12,082 nt of DNA from an uncultured candidate division Zixibacteria bacterium (lineage in GTDB: Bacteria; Zixibacteria; MSB-5A5; GN15; FEB-12): NCBI GenBank assembly GCA_913009765.1, contig CAJVYT010000095.1, forward strand, positions 1-12,082. Direction: 5' to 3'. The notes under the pieces were generated by a model that did not search any database, was not told where the DNA came from, and worked only from the letters and a program-made list of their open reading frames with translations. Shown here one piece after another: positions 1,866 to 9,952 of the stretch (its first letter is position 1; each line of letters starts with the position of its first letter). The position numbers and the translations under genes were made by a program.

Positions 1866-3077
1866 ATGAGTTTGATAATATTAGGAGTATTTGCTGCTGT
1901 ATATTTCGGAATGATACTTGGGAAAATTCCGGGGACAAATTTGGACCGCACAGGTGTGGCACTTCTTGGAGCTATAGTTTTATTAGCTACCGGAACAGTT
2001 CAAGTTAATAGTTTTTTTGATGCTGTTGATATTGGGACAATACTGCTGTTGTTCAGCCTCATGATACTGTCTGCTCAATTTCAGCTTGCCGGTACTTATT
2101 CATATATAGTGAAAAAAATTGGTAATTATGACTTTAATCCGACTAAACTTTTGGCTGTTATTTTGTTGACGACTGCTATATTGTCTGCTTTACTGATAAA
2201 TGATATTGTATGTCTTGCATTAACTCCGTTGGTCATTGAAATTTGTAGTAAACGTCAATTTAACCCAATTCCTTTTCTTTTGGGTGTCGCTTGTGCATCC
2301 AATATCGGTTCTGCGGCAACCTTGGTGGGGAACCCTCAAAATATTCTTGTCGGAGAGGCTCTTAAATTATCTTTTTCAAAATATTTGTTTGATAGTTTTG
2401 TACCGGTATTGTTGAGCCTTGTTTCTTTATGGCTGATACTTTCATGGCAATATAAAAAACATTGGCTTATGCCGGTAAAAAAAATAGTTGTAGACGAACA
2501 ACCTTTTAGTTTGGGTCAGAGCATCAAAGGCGGCATAATTACCTTATGCTTGTTAGCTGTGTTTATCTTCGGTTTTTTCTCACGAGATGTAGCAGCTTTA
2601 AGTGCAGCCGGTTTTCTTTTAATCTCTCGCAGTATGCGTTCACGAGATATTCTTAAAAACGTTAATTGGCAGCTTCTTGTATTATTTATCTCGTTGTTTA
2701 TTGTTAACTTTGCTTTAAATGAATCCGGCATGCTTCAAGAATTTCAAAATTTTGTTCTAAATGGTGGAATTGATTTGTATAAGCCGGGATGGCTTTTTGT
2801 CGTCAGTGCCGGTTTGTCAAACATTGTTTCCAATGTCCCAACAGTGATGCTGTTGCTTCCGTTAGCGAAACATCCCTTAGCAGGCTCGGTTCTTGCTTTA
2901 TCTTCTACTTTAGCAGGGAATTTTTTCATTGTCGGTTCCATAGCTAACATTATTGTTGTTCAGCAGTCCGATAGGCTCGGAGTTCATCTCAGTTGGGTTG
3001 AGCATGCCAAAACCGGAATGCCGGTTGCATTGGTTTCATTAACTATTGCAGGATTGTGGTTATGGCTTAGTTCATAA
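1866..3077 (+). CDS. SLC13/ArsB-NhaD-type ion transporter permease
   Basis: A 403-aa polytopic membrane protein, almost entirely hydrophobic, with about ten to eleven spans. The two half-repeats of the ion-transporter superfamily are visible: the N-terminal half carries SNIGSAATLVGNPQNILVG (145-163) and the C-terminal half SNVPTVMLLLPL (322-333) with GNFFIVGSIANIIVVQQ (351-367). The first contains the family's G-N-P-Q-N hairpin tip that binds substrate and Na+. Length is near the short members of the family (arsenite, Na+/H+ or anion permeases). Substrate cannot be read from sequence; an anion such as dicarboxylate, sulfate or arsenite is possible, and no arsC/arsR neighbour supports arsenite. 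No clear Shine-Dalgarno precedes the ATG. The upstream gap is rich in inverted repeats. It converges on the archaemetzincin gene with 32 nt between stops. Confidence 0.85.
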   Translation: MSLIILGVFAAVYFGMILGKIPGTNLDRTGVALLGAIVLLATGTVQVNSFFDAVDIGTILLLFSLMILSAQFQLAGTYSYIVKKIGNYDFNPTKLLAVILLTTAILSALLINDIVCLALTPLVIEICSKRQFNPIPFLLGVACASNIGSAATLVGNPQNILVGEALKLSFSKYLFDSFVPVLLSLVSLWLILSWQYKKHWLMPVKKIVVDEQPFSLGQSIKGGIITLCLLAVFIFGFFSRDVAALSAAGFLLISRSMRSRDILKNVNWQLLVLFISLFIVNFALNESGMLQEFQNFVLNGGIDLYKPGWLFVVSAGLSNIVSNVPTVMLLLPLAKHPLAGSVLALSSTLAGNFFIVGSIANIIVVQQSDRLGVHLSWVEHAKTGMPVALVSLTIAGLWLWLSS

Positions 3078-3109
3078 GATATGTGAATGCTTGTTGGATA
3101 AACTAACTT

Positions 3110-3652
3110 TTAAAAAGCACCGGTGAGTTGGCGTTTGCAGATGTCACAGAATTTTTCAGTTTTATTATCAATATCGTTCATGGTCTGCGAATAGTAATTG
3201 ACACATTTTGGATTACGGCAGTCAGTCAAATCAAAAAGGTGTCCGAGTTGATGGATAGATTCTTTTAAAAGACGGGGAAATATCTTTTTATCATCTTCAG
3301 GAAGTCCGTAAAATTGCTGTCTGATTTCGTATAATGAAACAACCGATGTTCCGGCTATTGTATCACAATATGCAATTACATTTCGTTCATCGGGGATATA
3401 AAGATCTTCTTCGCATACACCGATTATAATTTCACGCATATTTGCTTTTGAACGTTCCAGTTTTTGAAGCAGGACAGTTGCATAATATTGGTTGCGGATA
3501 ATGTTATGAGCTTCTACCGGCATTTTCATACCTTTTAAAATATCTACCGAGCGGTTAAAAACAGGACCTATTTCGGCAGCAAGACGATTTACTATCATAA
3601 AGTCAACTTCGCCCAATGGAATTACAACTATCTTTGATTTTAATAAACTCAT
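3110..3652 (-). CDS. amzA: Archaemetzincin-like protein, probably catalytically dead
   Basis: A 180-aa full-length relative of the archaemetzincin zinc proteases (peptidase family M54). Family features include the central EEDLYIP (81-87) and a C-terminal zinc-binding segment. The usual signature is HExxHxxGxxHCx4CxM, then CxxC. Here it reads HQLGHLFDLTDC (134-145), then C150, then C169 and C172. The two histidines and all four structural cysteines are kept. The general-base Glu is Gln135, the Gly is Asp141, the third zinc ligand is Asp144 instead of His, and the Met-turn Met is Asn152. Asp can act as third ligand in snapalysin-type metzincins, but loss of the Glu should abolish ordinary hydrolysis. 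The frame is intact, so it looks selected rather than decayed. It lies 8 nt downstream of a 62-aa zinc-ribbon gene, at the end of a co-directional deoB-deoC group. A peptide-binding role is a guess. Confidence 0.85.
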   Translation of the reverse strand: MSLLKSKIVVIPLGEVDFMIVNRLAAEIGPVFNRSVDILKGMKMPVEAHNIIRNQYYATVLLQKLERSKANMREIIIGVCEEDLYIPDERNVIAYCDTIAGTSVVSLYEIRQQFYGLPEDDKKIFPRLLKESIHQLGHLFDLTDCRNPKCVNYYSQTMNDIDNKTEKFCDICKRQLTGAF

Positions 3653-3660
3653 AATATTTT

Positions 3661-3849
3661 CTAACCCGAGGAAAAAAACGGAGAACTGTTTCCGTCTTTT
3701 GAAATTTTTATTTCAACAGGTGCTGCACATTTTGGGCAATGTCCTTTGAACGCTGTCTGCTGTTTATTGACATAAATTCGTGCATATACATGACAACATT
3801 TAAAATGCATACCAATAAATGGTCTTTTCTTCTTATCATCAGTCGTCAT
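3661..3849 (-). CDS. Small zinc-ribbon protein
   Basis: A 62-aa protein with a compact Cys cluster: Cys18, Cys19 and His20, then Cys38-Pro-Lys-Cys41, with HVYARIYVNKQQTAFKGH between. This reads as a minimal zinc ribbon with a beta-hairpin linker. I recall similar uncharacterised small proteins of this FKCC...CPKC pattern, but not a name. The basic N-terminus (DKKKRP) and Ser-rich tail are probably disordered. No Shine-Dalgarno is obvious. It lies 43 nt after deoC and 8 nt before the archaemetzincin-like gene, so co-transcription with the latter is likely. Binding a nucleic acid or a partner protein is possible, but there is no direct evidence. Confidence 0.75.
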   Translation of the reverse strand: MTTDDKKKRPFIGMHFKCCHVYARIYVNKQQTAFKGHCPKCAAPVEIKISKDGNSSPFFSSG

Positions 3850-3892
3850 ACTATAAAATACAAAAAAATACAGATTTTACAACTATATTCAG

Positions 3893-4564
3893 TCAGTTTT
3901 TCTTGAGCGATTCGTGCATAATAATTACAGATGCAGAACACCCTATTCTTGAAGCTCCGGCAGAAATCATGTTCTGACAATGAGATAACAGCTTTATTCC
4001 GGCTGATGCTTTAATCTTAATTTGTCCATCAGCTGTTTTTTGCATCAGTTTTACTGCTTCAACTGTTGCTCCTCCGAAAAATCCTGTGGAGGTTTTAATG
4101 AAGTCGGCACCACTGTTAATGACTACTTTGGTTGCTTCACTAATTTCAATATCTGTTAATTGTGATGATTCGACAATCACTTTTAGAATAATATTATATG
4201 GAATATTATTTCTGATTTCATAAATTTCTTTTTCAGCCTTTTCATATTGGTGCGTTTTTAAAAGTCCAATATTTGCCACCATGTCGAGTTCATCGGCTCC
4301 ATCTTTTACCGCTAAGAGTGCCTCTTGTAATTTTAGGTCTGCTCGGTTGGCACCAAGCGGGAACCCTATTACCGATGCTGTTTTTACTTGGCTCTGCGAC
4401 AGATAAGTCTTAGCGGTGGCGACATAACATGGATTGACGCAGACAGCAAAGAAATTATGAACAATTGCTTCTTGGCATAATTTCTGAATGTCATCTTTTG
4501 TGGCATCCTGTTTTAAATTGGTATGGTCAAAATATGAGGGGAGAATGGCTATATCCGGCTTCAT
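3893..4564 (-). CDS. deoC: Deoxyribose-phosphate aldolase
   Basis: DeoC splits 2-deoxyribose 5-phosphate into glyceraldehyde 3-phosphate and acetaldehyde, the last step of deoxynucleoside catabolism, in the cytoplasm. The 223-aa product has normal family length and a class I aldolase TIM barrel. The Schiff-base lysine is Lys157 in FIKTSTGF (155-162); the second conserved lysine is Lys185 in IKASAGI (184-190); Asp94 lies in DELDMV (91-96). VIGFPLGAN (65-73) is also typical. The phosphate-binding end reads RIGCSASV (206-213), where many homologues have GTSSG, a mild variation. The start overlaps the deoB stop (ATGA), with AAGGAA 7 nt upstream, so the two are translationally coupled. Confidence 0.97.
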   Translation of the reverse strand: MKPDIAILPSYFDHTNLKQDATKDDIQKLCQEAIVHNFFAVCVNPCYVATAKTYLSQSQVKTASVIGFPLGANRADLKLQEALLAVKDGADELDMVANIGLLKTHQYEKAEKEIYEIRNNIPYNIILKVIVESSQLTDIEISEATKVVINSGADFIKTSTGFFGGATVEAVKLMQKTADGQIKIKASAGIKLLSHCQNMISAGASRIGCSASVIIMHESLKKN

Positions 4565-5742
4565 GATTCTATTCCTTTTTTAAAAGAGTGACCGTATAAA
4601 TTATTTTCAATCTGAAAAATATCAACAATTGTTTGGGCTATGTCTGCAAAAGATGTCCTTCTTCCTAAGTTTATACTTTGTTTCATCTTCTTATTATACA
4701 CCAAAAGTGGTATATGTTCTCGAGTGTGGTCGGTATGTTTTGAAAAAGTAGGGTCACATCCATGGTCAGCAGTAATAATGAGCAAGTCCTCATTGTGCAT
4801 GGTTGTGATAATTTTTTCAAGTTCTGTATCAAACTGTTCTAACATCTGTGCGAACTTCTGAGGGTTTCGCCTGTGTCCGCAGAGTTCATCAAAATCAACC
4901 AGATTGGCAAATATTAATTGGTGGGTGGTGTCATTTGAAATAGATTCTTTAATTGTTTGAAGTCCCTCAAGATTTGATTTTGTTTTGATATATGTAGAAA
5001 TACCGTCACCGGCAAACAAATCATGTATTTTTCCAATGGCAAGAGTCTTGATATTTTTCTCAATCAGATAATTTAGCAGAGTTTTTGATGTTGGTTTAAG
5101 AGAAAAATCTTTTCGTTTGGCAGTTCTCTTAAATTGTCCAATTTTGCCGTTAAACGGGCGGGCGATAACACGGGCGACAGCATGTTCACCAACTAAAATC
5201 TGACGGGCTGTTTCACAAATTTTATATAATTTTTCTGCCGGATACACATCTTCATGAGCGGCAAGTTGAAAAACAGAATCGGCAGAGGTGTAGAGAATTA
5301 TTTCTTTTGTAAGTAAATGATGTTCTCCGAGACGTTCAATAATTTCTGTACCACTTGATACACAGTTTCCAATAGTTTTTATTCCTGTAGTTTTTTCAAA
5401 TTTGTCAATTAGTTCTTTGGGGAATCCATTGGGATATGTAGGAAACGTTTTTTTGGTGACAATACCGGCTATTTCTAAATGTCCGATAGTAGAATCTTTG
5501 CCGCAAGACAATTCAGCCATTTTCCCATAGCAGCCAATCGGGTTTATGATTGGTGGGAGACCCTTGATAGAAGCAATATTTCCCAAACCGAGAGATTGGC
5601 TTGTCGGCATGTGTAAACCGCCGACTGCTTCAGCACAGTGTGGCAAGGTAGAGGCACTGGAGTCGTTATAGTCAGAGGCATCGGGTAGTTCGCCAACGCC
5701 GCATCCATCGAGTACAATTAATATCACTCTATGTATATTCAT
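4561..5742 (-). CDS. deoB: Phosphopentomutase
   Basis: DeoB interconverts (deoxy)ribose 1-phosphate and 5-phosphate, supplying the substrate for DeoC. The 393-aa protein belongs to the alkaline-phosphatase superfamily and has the family's usual length. Metal and active-site motifs are complete: Asp12 in VILIVLDGCGVGE (6-18); GKDSTIGHLEIAG (81-93) with the phospho-acceptor Ser/Thr; NLVDFDELCGHRRN (280-293), giving Asp285 and His290; ADHG (Asp326, His327); and TDHTRE (His339). The cap domain lies roughly at 95-210. The gene is first of the deoB-deoC pair. AAGG directly abuts the ATG, so the ribosome site is weak. A TATAAA (5765-5760) could be the -10 of its promoter, with no clear -35. Confidence 0.97.
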   Translation of the reverse strand: MNIHRVILIVLDGCGVGELPDASDYNDSSASTLPHCAEAVGGLHMPTSQSLGLGNIASIKGLPPIINPIGCYGKMAELSCGKDSTIGHLEIAGIVTKKTFPTYPNGFPKELIDKFEKTTGIKTIGNCVSSGTEIIERLGEHHLLTKEIILYTSADSVFQLAAHEDVYPAEKLYKICETARQILVGEHAVARVIARPFNGKIGQFKRTAKRKDFSLKPTSKTLLNYLIEKNIKTLAIGKIHDLFAGDGISTYIKTKSNLEGLQTIKESISNDTTHQLIFANLVDFDELCGHRRNPQKFAQMLEQFDTELEKIITTMHNEDLLIITADHGCDPTFSKHTDHTREHIPLLVYNKKMKQSINLGRRTSFADIAQTIVDIFQIENNLYGHSFKKGIES

Positions 5743-5842
5743 CCTTGCAATGTATTGGTTTTATATGAAAATGCAAATATGAAGCAGTGCGAGAAATTGA
5801 AAAAATATTGATTGGCGGACGAGGACATACACCATACACGGG

Positions 5843-5878
5843 ATACGTCATGCTGAGCGGAGTCGAAGTATGATGTAT
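5843..5878. repeat. GAGCGGAGTCGAAG-type palindromic repeat
   Basis: The 25 bases 5848-5872 match 643-667 at 24 positions, and share the 16-mer CTGAGCGGAGTCGAAG with the reverse complement of 594-617. Outer arms ATACGTCAT (5843-5851) and ATGATGTAT (5870-5878) pair across it with one G-T wobble. This is a third copy of a dispersed repeat family in this window. It lies in the gap between deoB and the lipoprotein gene. Confidence 0.75.
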
Positions 5879-5898
5879 TCTGTGATTTGCAATTTAAT

Positions 5899-5929
5899 AA
5901 AAAAGGCGGAACGACTAAAGAGTTCCGCC
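5899..5929 (-). terminator. Terminator of the sigma operon, built from a repeat
   Basis: Read on the minus strand, arms GGCGGAAC and GTTCCGCC (5929-5922 and 5912-5905) form an 8-bp GC-rich stem with a 9-base loop, followed by TTTTTT (5904-5899). It lies 36 nt past the lipoprotein stop. The stem is the same repeat as at 242-266, with 18 identical bases, so a dispersed palindrome appears to serve as intrinsic terminator here. Confidence 0.75.
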
Positions 5930-5965
5930 CTACTATCTAATATTTTATATAAAATCAAATAATGT

Positions 5966-6796
5966 TTATTTCAAGCCTTCGGCTTTGGTGAGAACGAAAT
6001 TAACATCGTAATTTGATTCAAATTTATACCGCTGCCATTCGCCGTCAGTCAGCTGGGTGCGTTCTCCTTCGGTTTTCCACTTCTCTGTCTGTTTGATAAC
6101 AATACCTTTCACATAGGCAAAATAAATCATTCCATCTGTTTGAATTTTGTCCAAACCTGAACGCTGGGTTTTATCACCATCTTTTGGTTCTATCGGAATG
6201 AGTAAATTCCCGGTATATGCTATAACTGCACAATCGTATCCTAATTCTCGTACAAGAGATTTGATAGTATAGGTCGTTGATGCATTCATCGTTTCTGACG
6301 GAAGCATTACAGAGGTTGTCTGTGTCCAACTGTAGCCGGGGGATACTTTCGTTGACGGAAAAACAGGCATACCCTGTTCATAATAATTTTTCATATATGA
6401 TGCTGCTTTATCTTCAGAATCTTTAAAGGTGAAATCGATAATTTTACCATTTTGTAAAACAATCAAATCCATCTCGCGAGAATAGGTCACCGAATCAAGT
6501 TGTGTAGAATCATCTTTGTTGGGTTTGGTGTAATGCCACGTGTCAATTTCATTTATTTTATAAGTGCTGTCATTGATAATTTCTAAAATATTTTGTTTGA
6601 CAGTAGCTAAAGAGACATCAACTTCTTTTTTTACAAGAGAGTCTGCTGAATAGATTTCAGTTTGACGTTTTGAATCTTGTTTGTATTCTAAACTCATTCC
6701 CGGTTTGTATTTAAATGAGAGTTGTATTTCTTTTGTGCCTTCGGTGCAGCTGAGTAACAGCATTGAAAGCAAAATGAGGGCGGTTAGTCTTTTCAA
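5966..6796 (-). CDS. Secreted lipoprotein, DUF6263-like
   Basis: A 276-aa protein with a lipoprotein signal: a basic start (MKR), a hydrophobic core and the lipobox LLSC with Cys17 as the lipidated residue. It should therefore be anchored in the envelope outside the cytoplasm. The mature part is rich in beta-strand patterns and resembles DUF6263-type proteins (FKYKPGMSLEY at 28-38); the assignment is by eye. The start is TTG at 6796-6794, supported by AAGGAG (6808-6803, 6-nt spacer) and by the signal peptide beginning exactly there. It is the last gene of the sigma/anti-sigma unit, 28 nt after the anti-sigma stop, so it is probably a co-transcribed envelope component or sensor. Molecular function unknown. 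Confidence 0.85.
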   Translation of the reverse strand: MKRLTALILLSMLLLSCTEGTKEIQLSFKYKPGMSLEYKQDSKRQTEIYSADSLVKKEVDVSLATVKQNILEIINDSTYKINEIDTWHYTKPNKDDSTQLDSVTYSREMDLIVLQNGKIIDFTFKDSEDKAASYMKNYYEQGMPVFPSTKVSPGYSWTQTTSVMLPSETMNASTTYTIKSLVRELGYDCAVIAYTGNLLIPIEPKDGDKTQRSGLDKIQTDGMIYFAYVKGIVIKQTEKWKTEGERTQLTDGEWQRYKFESNYDVNFVLTKAEGLK

Positions 6797-6824
6797 TTCT
6801 TTCTCCTTGGTAACAATAATATAA

Positions 6825-7385
6825 TCAGTTTACCAAACGATTATATTCATGTATCACAGACAGTCTTCCAAGCATCCCCGGAGGACTAATCAGTAACATT
6901 CCCTGTATATGATTAAGTTGTTCTGCTTTGGTAAAAATTGGTGAATCGTCTGGTTCTATCATTTGTTCAAGCGGTGTCATGACAAAAATAGGAGATTCGG
7001 CAGGATTGTTTTGAGCAAACTTAGTATCGCTTGTGCCAATGATAATAGAAATTGCAAAAATAATCAATGCAGCTGCTGTTGAGATCAATGCTCGGCTGAA
7101 TTCAGAGCGTATTTTTTCAGGTGATTTCTGTTTTTGCTGTTCCTGCCAGTCGTTTTTCTCAATCGTACGGGCAAAAATTAAATTGGCTGTTTCTTCAAAA
7201 TAAAGATCACCCGGATTCACAGAAGCACTGTTATTGAGCAGTTCTTTGAGATGACCGGTAGCTTCTAACTCTTGCTTACAGGAATCACATAAAAGAATAT
7301 GTTCCTTGAGTTGTGTGGCAAGCACGGGGTCAAGACTGTTGTCGGCGAGGTCATCTATAAGCAGCTTATATTGGAGACATGTCAT
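6825..7385 (-). CDS. Anti-sigma factor, zinc-finger (ZAS) type with one membrane span
   Basis: A 186-aa partner of the upstream ECF sigma factor. Residues 1-40 form a zf-HC2/ZAS-like domain with Cys3 and the motif His29-x3-Cys33-x2-Cys36 (HILLCDSC), which binds the sigma factor in the cytoplasm. A charged linker leads to one transmembrane helix (about 99-117), leaving about 69 residues outside the membrane that may sense a signal. I chose the ATG at 7385 rather than the longer frame from 7478. It has AAAGGAG 5 nt upstream, inside the last sigma codons, and the ZAS domain starts right there; the extra 31 residues would overlap the sigma gene. The sigma stop and this start are 2 nt apart, so translation is probably coupled. 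No protease-site prediction was made. Confidence 0.9.
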   Translation of the reverse strand: MTCLQYKLLIDDLADNSLDPVLATQLKEHILLCDSCKQELEATGHLKELLNNSASVNPGDLYFEETANLIFARTIEKNDWQEQQKQKSPEKIRSEFSRALISTAAALIIFAISIIIGTSDTKFAQNNPAESPIFVMTPLEQMIEPDDSPIFTKAEQLNHIQGMLLISPPGMLGRLSVIHEYNRLVN

Positions 7386-7387
7386 TT

Positions 7388-7963
7388 TTACTCCTTTGGG
7401 TATAATCGCTGTTTTAATATCTTTTTTAGTTTTGTGCGGGCGATGTGAAGATTCGAGCGAACAGTAGCTTCGGGGCATCCAAATGTTTCCGCTATTTCTG
7501 CTTTTGTAAATCCTTCAATATCATGCAGAATTGCTGTTAAGCGTTGTTTGGTCGGAAGTAATTCCAAAGCCTTTAAAATTTCATTCATCAGTCGCTTATT
7601 TTTCAGATTCTCTGAGGGGGTGGCTACTTTGGTAGAAAGGGCAAGCTGTATATGACCGGGGAGAGAAGTGGAATCATCAGCCAATGTCGTATGACCTTTT
7701 CTTTTTCGTAATAGGTCAATTGAATAATTTGTAGCAATCCTCAAGATGAAACTGGTAAAATATCTTACATTCTCTAAGTCCTTACGTTTGTTATAAATTC
7801 GTACAAATGTCTCCTGTACAACTTCATCGGCATCCAAATGATTACCCAGTATCTGAAACGCCACCGAATAGATTTTTCTTTGGTAGCGGTGTACTAGTTC
7901 AGCAAATGCTGTGTCATCACCATGTAAAAATTGCTCGACTATTTGAGGAACCGATTTATCCAT
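7388..7963 (-). CDS. ECF-family RNA polymerase sigma factor
   Basis: A 191-aa sigma-70-family factor with only regions 2 and 4, as in the extracytoplasmic-function group. Region 2 spans about 18-88, with the core-binding and -10 segments in HLDADEVVQETFVRIYN (42-58) and FTSFILRIATNYSIDLLRKR (69-88). A linker (89-123) separates it from region 4 (about 126-183), whose helix-turn-helix is FTKAEIAETFGCPEATVRSN (152-171) and reads the -35 element. GAGGG lies just before the ATG. It is first of a unit with the anti-sigma factor and lipoprotein, and divergent from an MFS exporter. A housekeeping-like TTGACA promoter precedes it, rather than an obvious ECF-type autoregulated one. Its subgroup cannot be assigned by eye. 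Confidence 0.95.
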   Translation of the reverse strand: MDKSVPQIVEQFLHGDDTAFAELVHRYQRKIYSVAFQILGNHLDADEVVQETFVRIYNKRKDLENVRYFTSFILRIATNYSIDLLRKRKGHTTLADDSTSLPGHIQLALSTKVATPSENLKNKRLMNEILKALELLPTKQRLTAILHDIEGFTKAEIAETFGCPEATVRSNLHIARTKLKKILKQRLYPKE

Positions 7964-8039
7964 AATCCCTCAAAATAAATTATCATCAACATATAGACGC
8001 TTCTGTTTCGTATCTGTTTAAGTAAATAACAAAATAACC

Positions 8040-8068
8040 TTGACTCTTAAAACAATTAACATTACAGT
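8040..8068 (+). promoter_or_regulatory. Candidate promoter of the MFS exporter
   Basis: TTGACT (8040-8045), a 17-nt spacer and TACAGT (8063-8068) make a reasonable housekeeping-type promoter about 55 nt upstream of the exporter ATG. It overlaps the divergent promoter at 8059-8087, so the two could interfere. Confidence 0.45.
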
Positions 8069-8087
8069 TATGTTTGGAACTTGTCAA
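8059..8087 (-). promoter_or_regulatory. Candidate promoter of the ECF sigma operon
   Basis: On the minus strand a perfect -35 TTGACA (8087-8082) is followed after 17 nt by TAATGT (8064-8059), about 90 nt upstream of the sigma start codon. The -10 matches consensus at only three positions, so certainty is moderate. It overlaps the exporter promoter on the other strand. Confidence 0.45.
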
Positions 8088-8125
8088 TCTTTTTTATGAC
8101 AACAACTTAGAAAGAATAATGAGAA

Positions 8126-9535
8126 ATGACAGAAAAACCGCTTTTACAAAATAAATATTTACTTTTTACCGTTGGAGCGATAGGTACCTTTATGGCGACA
8201 TTAGACGGTTCTATCCTAAATGTTGCTCTGCCAACGATTTCCAACGATTTTGCTGTCTCTATTGATAAAATAGCATGGATTGTTGTGACATATTCGTTAA
8301 CTCTTATTTCATTGATGCTGATTTTTGGAGTATGGGTTGATAAAAAAGGATATTACTTTGCCTATCGGTTTGGATATATTTTCTTTATAATAGGCTCGGC
8401 AATGTGTGCTATCAGCACGAGTTTTGAATTTCTTGTTTTCAGTAGAATAATTGAGGCTATTGGAACTGCTATGTTTGCTGCTATTGGTCCCGGGATGGTA
8501 ACCTCTGTTTTTGGAGAAAAAGAGAGGGGTAAAGGGATAGGATTGATGGTTATGATGGTTGCCGGCGGGTTTATGGTCGGACCACCATTAGGCGGTTTTC
8601 TACTTAATTATTTTCATTGGTCAGCTCTGTTTGTAATTAATATCCCGATAGGTCTTTTTGGTTTGTTTATGACATTGAAGTTTTTTAAATCAATACCAAA
8701 ACCGGTATTAAAAAGGTCTCTCAAAATTGAGGGGGCGGCATCAATGTCGGTTGCTTTGGTAGCGACAACATTTTGTATGTCCGAAATTAATTCGTATCCA
8801 TTATATGATTATCATATCTGGGGATTAGCTCTGCTTGCTCTTGTTATGTACAGTCTGTTTTTCTATTTTGAATCAAAACCAAAAACAGCCCTTATCGGGT
8901 TGCAGGTATTTTCAAACAGACAGTTTACATCATCTATTGGAGCGATGCTGTTTATGTTTATGGCACTTTCCGGTATTACAATTTTGATTCCTTTTTATTT
9001 AGAAACAATCAAAGGATACGCTCCTAATCAGGTTGGTCTGTTTTTAACTATTTTTCCTATAATGATGTTTGTTTTTGCTCCGTTGTCCGGTCGTTTGTCC
9101 GATAAAATTGGTTTTCAGCAATTAACAATTGTTGGTCTGCTTGTTTTGATTCTTGGTATGTATTTTCTTTCTGATTTAACAGTGGACTCTACCAAAGGCT
9201 ATATCATTTTGAGTTTTGTTTTGCTTGGTATGGGGGTAGGGATATTTAACACGCCAAATTCTTCGGCACTGATGGGGTCGGTCACAGAAAAACACAGAGC
9301 AGTGACATCATCGATTTTGGGGACAACCCGCAATATCGGTATGTCTATCGGGATTGCATTGTCGACGGCTCTGTTTACATATTTCCAAACACAAAACAGT
9401 TTTCTTGGCGATAAGGGAGTTATTTTTGTTAAGTCGTATGCAACGGTGATATATGTTTCAATTGGGATTACCGGAATAGCTTTATTATTTTCATTTTTAA
9501 GGGGTCAGAAAAACGCTGTAACTGAAAGTAATTAA
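8126..9535 (+). CDS. MFS multidrug exporter, DHA2 (EmrB/QacA) family
   Basis: A 469-aa polytopic transporter with about 14 predicted spans, the usual layout of DHA2 proton-drug antiporters. Family motifs are clear: D1 at the first helix, LDGSILNVALP (26-36); motif A, GVWVDKKGYYFAYRFG (68-83); Arg107 in the fourth-helix motif FSRIIEAIGTA (105-115); antiporter motif C, AGGFMVGPPLGGF (146-158); and HWSALFVINIPIG (164-176). A second motif A-like loop, GRLSDKIG, follows in the C-half. The length is slightly short but complete. Only a weak ribosome site (GAG at 8121-8123) is seen. There is no adjacent MFP adaptor (EmrA) or TolC gene, so it may work alone in the inner membrane. Divergence from the ECF sigma operon hints at, but does not prove, shared stress control. 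Substrate unknown. Confidence 0.93.
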   Translation: MTEKPLLQNKYLLFTVGAIGTFMATLDGSILNVALPTISNDFAVSIDKIAWIVVTYSLTLISLMLIFGVWVDKKGYYFAYRFGYIFFIIGSAMCAISTSFEFLVFSRIIEAIGTAMFAAIGPGMVTSVFGEKERGKGIGLMVMMVAGGFMVGPPLGGFLLNYFHWSALFVINIPIGLFGLFMTLKFFKSIPKPVLKRSLKIEGAASMSVALVATTFCMSEINSYPLYDYHIWGLALLALVMYSLFFYFESKPKTALIGLQVFSNRQFTSSIGAMLFMFMALSGITILIPFYLETIKGYAPNQVGLFLTIFPIMMFVFAPLSGRLSDKIGFQQLTIVGLLVLILGMYFLSDLTVDSTKGYIILSFVLLGMGVGIFNTPNSSALMGSVTEKHRAVTSSILGTTRNIGMSIGIALSTALFTYFQTQNSFLGDKGVIFVKSYATVIYVSIGITGIALLFSFLRGQKNAVTESN

Positions 9536-9604
9536 AATATTGACTTAAACGAAATATTCGCTATTATATAAATCTTAAATGACTGTTGTAAAAACACCTC
9601 AGTT

Positions 9605-9636
9605 GGGTGGCACACCCCCCTTGGGGTGTGTGGAAA
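9605..9636. repeat. Palindromic repeat CACACCCC-CCTT-GGGGTGTG
   Basis: A perfect 8-bp GC-rich stem (9611-9618 and 9623-9630) with a 4-base loop. The leading GGGTGGCACACC (9605-9616) is identical to 542-553, the left edge of the MITE-like element. It follows the exporter stop by 69 nt but lacks a T-run, so it is better read as a dispersed repeat than as the exporter's terminator. Confidence 0.65.
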
Positions 9637-9655
9637 TATTCCAAGAGAATAGAAA

Positions 9656-9673
9656 CCTAACCCAAGGGTTAGG
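9656..9673. repeat. Palindrome CCTAACCC-AA-GGGTTAGG
   Basis: Perfect 8-base arms separated by two A residues, about 30 nt upstream of the tRNA. In reverse complement it is led by GTGTAG, similar to the TGTAGGG lead-in of the 127-146 and 242-266 palindromes, so it may be another member of that stem-variable repeat group. Confidence 0.6.
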
Positions 9674-9704
9674 CTACACGGTTATTATATGTGTTCCTAT
9701 ATAT

Positions 9705-9780
9705 GGGGCCTTAGCTCAGATGGGAGAGCGCTTGACTGGCAGTCAAGAGGTCAGGAGTTCGATCCTCCTAGGCTCCACCA
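9705..9780 (+). tRNA. tRNA-Ala (anticodon GGC)
   Basis: A full 76-nt cloverleaf. The acceptor stem GGGGCCT (9705-9711) pairs with AGGCTCC (9770-9776) and includes the G3-U70 wobble that identifies alanine tRNAs. D-stem GCTC/GAGC, anticodon stem CTTGA/TCAAG with loop CTGGCAG, so anticodon GGC reading GCC/GCU codons. T-stem AGGAG/CTCCT with TTCGATC loop. Discriminator A and encoded CCA (9778-9780). A terminator follows at 9788. Confidence 0.98.
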
Positions 9781-9787
9781 AAATTTT

Positions 9788-9812
9788 AAACCCGCTTAAC
9801 GGCGGGTTTTTT
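9788..9812 (+). terminator. Intrinsic terminator after tRNA-Ala
   Basis: AAACCCGC (9788-9795) pairs with GCGGGTTT (9802-9809) around a 6-base loop and continues into a T-run ending at 9812. It starts 7 nt after the tRNA CCA end, as expected for a monocistronic tRNA unit. Confidence 0.9.
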
Positions 9813-9825
9813 ATGTTAAATGATG

Positions 9826-9952
9826 TATTGATGTACACTATATAATCTCATATATTTCAATATGGGAAAACGCAATAAAATTCGGACAGATAATAAAACA
9901 GCACAACCAAGCGATAAACTTTTGCTGGTTGGTTTTCTTGCTCTTATCATAT
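9826..9952 (+). repeat. 127-bp direct repeat, copy 1
   Basis: Identical base for base to 11956-12082, offset 2130 bp. It covers 36 nt upstream and the first 91 nt of the 696-aa membrane protein gene. The preceding bases differ (G at 9825, C at 11955), so the identity starts exactly here. The upstream part holds a perfect TATAAT (9841-9846), a possible -10 without a visible -35. Confidence 0.99.

Follow-up and report, generated by a model that had tools for sequence, protein, structure and literature searches.

Little is known about the function of archaemetzincins, and the archaeal member studied in PMC3427221 was inactive on the substrates tested, according to passages of that paper. Passages of PMC3427221, PMC4374960 and PMC9304148 describe CarG of Myxococcus xanthus as an archaemetzincin whose catalytic Glu is replaced by Gln; it is proteolytically inactive, is required together with CarD at extracytoplasmic function (ECF)-sigma promoters, and is reported solely from Cystobacterineae. 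According to a passage of PMC3427221, mammalian AMZ1 has Asn, Ser or Thr instead of the third His. In this study, we analyzed an archaemetzincin-like gene in a stretch of 12,082 nucleotides (the window) from an uncultured Zixibacteria bacterium (contig CAJVYT010000095.1, assembly GCA_913009765.1). The encoded protein has kept the archaemetzincin fold and an invariant four-Cys element, has lost the catalytic set, is under strong purifying selection, and forms a conserved gene pair with a 62-amino-acid protein. It is probably a pseudopeptidase, in which the fold would have been kept for binding instead of cutting and would act with the zinc-ribbon-like partner, possibly on nucleic acid. The features at the center of the analysis are as follows.

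3110..3652, minus strand: pseudo-archaemetzincin of 180 amino acids (M54 fold without the catalytic set), from the open reading frame list, Pfam, alignments and fold comparison
3218..3253, minus strand: altered active-site motif HQLGHLFDLTDC, residues 134-145 (canonical HExxHxxGxxHC), from sequence, codons and alignment
3137..3220, minus strand: structural cysteines C145, C150, C169 and C172 and the former Met-turn position N152, from alignment
3661..3849, minus strand: 62-amino-acid zinc-ribbon-like protein, the conserved partner gene, with its stop 8 bases before the pseudo-archaemetzincin start

The 180-residue reading frame begins with ATG and contains no internal stop, and its product scores 64 bits on Pfam PF07998, for which the cut-off is 24.4 (E 2.5e-17). 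When the protein is aligned to solved archaemetzincins, HQLGHLFDLTDC lies under HExxHxxGxxHC and CVN under CxM. Glu is replaced by Gln135 (codon CAA), Gly by Asp141, the third His by Asp144 and Met by Asn152; His134, His138 and Cys145, Cys150, Cys169 and Cys172 are retained. The initial annotation, made from the letters of the DNA, had claimed these four changes, an intact frame and the retention of two His and four Cys, and each of these points agreed with the alignment. Membership in M54 is indicated by the PF07998 score, the archaemetzincin fold and the CX4CX(n)CXXC four-Cys element, and the features of an active peptidase (catalytic Glu, Gly, third His and the Met of CxM) are absent. On the NCBIfam model for archaemetzincin family Zn-dependent metalloproteases (NF033823), the protein scored 132.8 bits, below the cut-off of 145.

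A protein search returned 365 homologues at E <= 1e-10, of which the best 120 were examined; the nearest relatives were from Zixibacteria. Among these best 120, residue 135 is Gln in 85, Arg in 29, His in 5 and Lys in 1, and Glu occurs in none. His134 is present in all 120, His138 in 118 and all four Cys in 120, residue 144 is Glu in 72, Asp in 26, Gln in 17, Asn in 2 and Pro, His and Ser in 1 each, and residue 152 is Asn in 116 and His in 4. Another protein search gave 99 proteins whose visible names were mostly Zixibacteria, with one Dehalococcoidia. Three separate contigs of metagenome-assembled genomes (MAGs) of Zixibacteria (L001-L003), 93-95% identical, carry HQLGHLFDL(T/N)DC with CAA or CAG at codon 135, and seven or eight further window genes were matched at these loci, an indication that the window comes from Zixibacteria or a group close to it. 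Pairwise Nei-Gojobori ratios of nonsynonymous to synonymous change (dN/dS) between the window gene and L001, L002 and L003 were 0.030, 0.016 and 0.036, which are rough values because dS is 1.1-2.0; more distant pairs were saturated. Since separate MAG contigs share the changes, all 120 listed homologues have lost Glu but retained the four Cys, and dN/dS is low, the altered motif is, as judged from these sequences, neither a sequencing error nor the mark of a dying gene.

The M54 gene was sought in 132 Zixibacteria genomes and was found in 120 of them, with 145 matches in total. The fetched loci gave 173 frames and 144 distinct sequences, to which the window sequence was added. The intact set (Glu135, His144 and Met152) is carried by 35 sequences, which include paralogues in G002 and G003, where a pseudo-form is present as well. 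The non-intact motifs form a series from HExxHxxGxxN through HQxxHxxGxxN and HQxxHxxDxx(E/D/S) down to zero zinc ligands, as in FKIVARLMGMRAC of L130. From this series, the active site can be said to erode stepwise across Zixibacteria until no zinc ligand is left. A quick tree of 140 rows was built after fragments L010, L028, L030, L048 and L101 had been omitted and the six motif columns deliberately removed. The sequences with Met152 changed to Asn or His formed a clade of 69 rows, including the window, with an SH-like approximate likelihood-ratio (SH-aLRT) support of 99, and the fewest changes required on the tree were 6 for Glu, 3 for the third His, and 12 and 11 for the other two His.

Compared to the 35 intact-motif sequences, in which columns 134, 135, 138, 141 and 144 rank 6, 7, 8, 22 and 9 in conservation, the same columns rank 101, 122, 118, 155 and 161 of 170 in the 70 sequences whose residue 152 is Asn or His, a pattern confounded by descent. 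The four Cys columns are invariant in these 70 sequences, and the protein thus appears to be well conserved except at its former cutting site. The four Cys are also invariant in all 90 sequences that are paired with the 62-amino-acid gene (hereafter partnered) and complete at those positions. One or both of His134 and His138 are lost in 30 of these 90 and both in 18, and the role shared by the group therefore does not require a metal at the old site. The initial annotation had suggested a selected pseudoprotease, with a possible role in peptide binding, in regulation or in another chemistry. Selection is upheld by the SH-aLRT value of 99 for the Asn/His152 clade, by dN/dS of 0.016-0.036 and by the invariant Cys, and no breakdown of the gene was seen in the homologues. 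The altered state is not special to the window gene, and the two remaining His, which had been noted as kept, are dispensable in the group. Positions that seemed newly conserved in the pseudo-clade were left unused, as divergence is much greater among the intact-motif sequences (median column entropy of 1.94 vs 0.66). In four sequences (L058, L063, L109 and L160), about 40 extra N-terminal residues include a hydrophobic stretch, possibly a membrane anchor.

The gene directly upstream of the pseudo-archaemetzincin, on the same strand, was not seen by the initial annotation and is the more informative part of the locus. Its 62-residue product had no match in an NCBIfam scan and only sub-cut-off matches in Pfam, several of them to zinc ribbons. 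In a 64-sequence alignment, G13, C18, C19, Y22, R24, Y26, C38, P39, C41, G53, F58 and F59 are invariant, and from its cysteines the protein is predicted to bind zinc. The AlphaFold2 model has four strands and a predicted local distance difference score (pLDDT) of 87.9, and no fold stood out in a comparison with known folds. A search for relatives found 982, and the names of the 120 listed reveal no function. A 280-residue match (P0196) resembled a fusion of both genes, but its first part is unrecognizable as the zinc ribbon in that frame, and we do not count it as one.

The 62-amino-acid gene occurs in one copy each in 93 of the 132 Zixibacteria genomes, and 90 of the 93 copies are followed directly by an M54 gene in the same orientation. 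In the three exceptions, the gene adjoins a cut-off pseudo-form (G010, in L010), lies 80 bases from a contig end (G132), or shares no contig with the M54 gene (G074). No partner was found for any of the 35 intact-motif sequences (33 have none, and 2 lie at contig edges), and the intact set is absent from all 91 partnered sequences, the window included; the 7 of these 91 that keep Glu all have Asn at 144. Collectively, these alignments and gene counts indicated that the pseudo-archaemetzincin lineage is real, selected, distributed through the phylum and broader than first noted, and that its small zinc-ribbon-like partner is new.

Further upstream, the window holds the following neighbors.

3893..4564, minus strand: DeoC-type aldolase, the upstream neighbor, frequent in relatives (PF01791)
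4561..5742, minus strand: Metalloenzyme-superfamily protein, a neighbor (PF01676)
5966..7963, minus strand: DUF6263 protein, anti-sigma-like zf-HC2 protein and ECF sigma factor, a wider conserved neighborhood for which no role is claimed (domain scan)

We take the Metalloenzyme-superfamily protein to be a DeoB-type phosphopentomutase. DeoC lies within 1 kb in 57 of the 83 partnered loci with enough flanking sequence, a cluster of the Metalloenzyme-superfamily gene is found near 43 partnered loci, and clusters of the DUF6263, anti-sigma and ECF sigma genes are found near 41, 39 and 38. A single frame in one relative matches both DeoB and DeoC (L009:3808-5688), possibly a fusion, and in another DeoC is divided between two frames (L001:5016-5753). 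Promoter- and terminator-like sites in 2900-8200 occurred at chance level, and an Rfam scan found only tRNA. A probably spurious frame of 88 amino acids at 9579-9845 overlaps, on the same strand, a tRNA-Ala gene (9705-9780, anticodon GGC). As to the intact-motif archaemetzincins, 24 of 35 have a co-oriented gene for a sigma-54 (NtrC-type) response regulator within 200 bases (for example, L161, L162, L166 and L170), compared to 0 of 90 partnered pseudo-forms.

On the other side of the pair, a gene for an MrfA/YprA-type DNA-repair helicase is found downstream of the M54 gene in many relatives. The helicase encoded in L078, for example, contains DEAD, Helicase_C, HRQ1 winged-helix and MZB domains, and its match to the YprA structure 6znp has an E of 3.3e-275. 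Proteins with the MZB domain are present in 91 of the 132 genomes (95 matches). In 65 cases, an M54 gene is followed by a co-oriented MZB gene no more than 6 kb away, and 54 of these M54 genes are partnered. A domain scan of the window proteins found no MrfA-type helicase. In L142, the gene order is a sugar-kinase-like gene, an intact-motif archaemetzincin (HELGHTMNLHHC) and MrfA; in L148, it is a similar kinase, a zinc ribbon, an archaemetzincin with HQIGHVLGLKNC, two further frames and MrfA. The kinase in both loci is presumably a sugar kinase. These gene orders suggest that the helicase neighborhood predates the loss of catalysis. Proteins with RNase_H_2, which we take to be the exonuclease domain of MrfB, occur in 116 of the 132 genomes; among the genomes searched, none was found in G002 and G003, and just one frame of 1140 amino acids in G001. 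Seven genomes (G002, G003, G007, G021, G022, G049 and G054) have neither MZB nor RNase_H_2, yet the pseudo-archaemetzincin pair is present; this suggests joint loss or incompleteness of the MAGs.

As a mechanism for the pseudopeptidase, the archaemetzincin fold with its four-Cys element would serve as a binding scaffold, and the zinc-ribbon protein would be its working partner, probably in a complex, as the gene pairing suggests. The zinc ribbon would act as a nucleic-acid- or protein-binding module. More tentatively, the pathway may be related to nucleic acids (DNA repair or transcription), because an MrfA/YprA-type helicase lies downstream in many relatives and because CarG, the one inactive archaemetzincin that has been studied and the nearest functional precedent, is a transcription cofactor. 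A more specific version, which we regard as possible though doubtful, is that a Zixibacteria archaemetzincin encoded beside MrfA lost catalysis and gained the 62-amino-acid partner, and that the resulting nucleic-acid-handling complex, which in most lineages would recognize damage or load the helicase, outlived MrfA in the window lineage. Several observations weigh against these proposals. DeoC and other genes are conserved neighbors as well, and adjacency alone cannot name the pathway. The MZB search gave no match in 23 of the 90 partnered genomes. These include G001-G003, the closest relatives of the window, for which a strict MrfA-only role therefore fails, and MrfA cannot be a requirement of the pair; the assemblies are MAGs, which makes such absences soft. 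The contrast between having the partner and having the intact motif is, on the tree, largely one phylogenetic event: an independent-pairs test found 7 pairs, of which at most one is informative. Furthermore, for 19 of the M54 sequences that lack the intact set, no partner was detected or the gene is at a contig edge. A single clade for all 107 sequences without the intact motif was not rejected by the approximately unbiased (AU) test (p-AU 0.57). The branch uniting the 90 partnered sequences with 12 unpartnered relatives, added by us to that set to give 102, has a support of only 33, and co-loss statistics on the tree had no power. Lastly, the retention of His134, His138 and an acidic residue 144 (98 of the best 120 homologues) fits a kept metal site in the window subclade.

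This last observation is the basis of an unlikely alternative in which His134, His138 and Asp or Glu144, perhaps with Asp or Glu141, hold a metal for sensing or for a chemistry other than that of a peptidase. Asp is accepted as the third metzincin ligand, HEXXHXXGXX(H/D), in a passage of PMC3427221. Of the 90 partnered sequences that are complete, 78 have either both His or neither. An acidic residue occupies position 144 in 36 of the 60 sequences with both His and in 3 of the remaining 30; these patterns are likewise confounded by descent. However, the same 60 include 24 with no acid at 144, one or both His are missing from the other 30, and the conservation of columns 134, 138 and 144 ranks below that of most of the protein. 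The site in the window subclade may nevertheless hold a metal through His134, His138 and Asp144, without a general base. Retained or weakened peptidase activity is still less credible and, together with an artefact of sequencing or gene decay, would be highly surprising. AMZ1, with Asn, Ser or Thr for its third His, is described as an aminopeptidase, a claim doubted by the citing authors in a passage of PMC3427221, and Glu is kept, with Asn at 144, in the 7 partnered relatives noted above. Against this stand the lack of Glu in all of the best 120 homologues and the importance of the zinc-binding His and Glu for proteolysis in AMZ-tk mutants, as given in part of PMC4681839. An artefact is at odds with the same changes on independent MAG contigs, and decay with the low dN/dS.

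Another alternative, which we consider improbable but less so than an active peptidase, is that the protein works as CarG does, by joining a CarD-type protein that binds RNA polymerase and serving ECF-sigma promoters, in this case for the ECF sigma gene in the neighborhood. The Glu-to-Gln change and inactivity of CarG, together with the ECF sigma and anti-sigma genes near partnered loci and in the window, are consistent with such a role. On the CarG-type NCBIfam model NF033824, however, the window protein scored 83.3 bits against an equivalog cut-off of 250, and three intact archaemetzincins scored higher (100.7, 123.8 and 136.2). By this score, the protein is not a CarG orthologue, and nothing points to common descent with CarG, as the score falls below those of the intact archaemetzincins; the relation rests on NCBIfam scores and not on a tree. 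None of the ten window proteins scanned has a CarD domain (the rest of the genomes was not searched for CarD), and the direct partner gene encodes the 62-amino-acid protein and not CarD. The pseudopeptidase acting with its zinc-ribbon-like partner is the reading that we prefer.

The residue-by-residue erosion of the catalytic site, while the four-Cys element and the bulk of the fold are held fixed, shows which part of an archaemetzincin is dispensable, and the eroding lineage offers a natural series of variants in which to test what the archaemetzincin fold binds. The 62-amino-acid partner and the MrfA neighborhood provide a first testable pathway hypothesis. The inactive M54 group may have been overlooked, as M54, archaemetzincin, archaelysin, AMZ1 and CarG are all absent from the main text of PMC11266112, a review published in 2024 on inactive metallopeptidases. 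None of the titles and abstract openings found in the literature concerns this pseudo-archaemetzincin group, and 'metzincin', 'protease' and 'zinc ribbon' do not appear in the main text of the YprA-family survey PMC12458937.

Compared to the described archaemetzincins (M54/PF07998; AmzA 2x7m, 3zvs and 4axq; 3lmc), the window protein is alike in family, fold and the four-Cys element with its spacing. It differs in the replacement of Glu, the third His, Gly and Met, in its NF033823 score below the cut-off, and in the pairing with a 62-amino-acid zinc-ribbon-like gene. Its likeness to AMZ1 lies in one partnered clade that also has Asn at 144, whereas the passage on AMZ1 in PMC3427221 mentions no loss of Glu, which the window protein lacks. 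The mitomycin repair genes MrfAB (YprAB) of Bacillus subtilis resemble the wider group in that an MrfA-type helicase is encoded close downstream of the pseudo-archaemetzincin in many relatives; the window itself has no MrfA, and G001-G003 have no MZB match. Compared to CarG as described in the passages cited above, the window protein shares the archaemetzincin fold family, Gln for the catalytic Glu and the standing of a conserved member, but has also lost the third His and Met and is paired with the 62-amino-acid protein instead of carD. If the more specific version of the explanation, with a complex that outlived MrfA, is true, the Zixibacteria lineage would represent, beside CarG, a second conversion of archaemetzincins to non-enzymatic factors.
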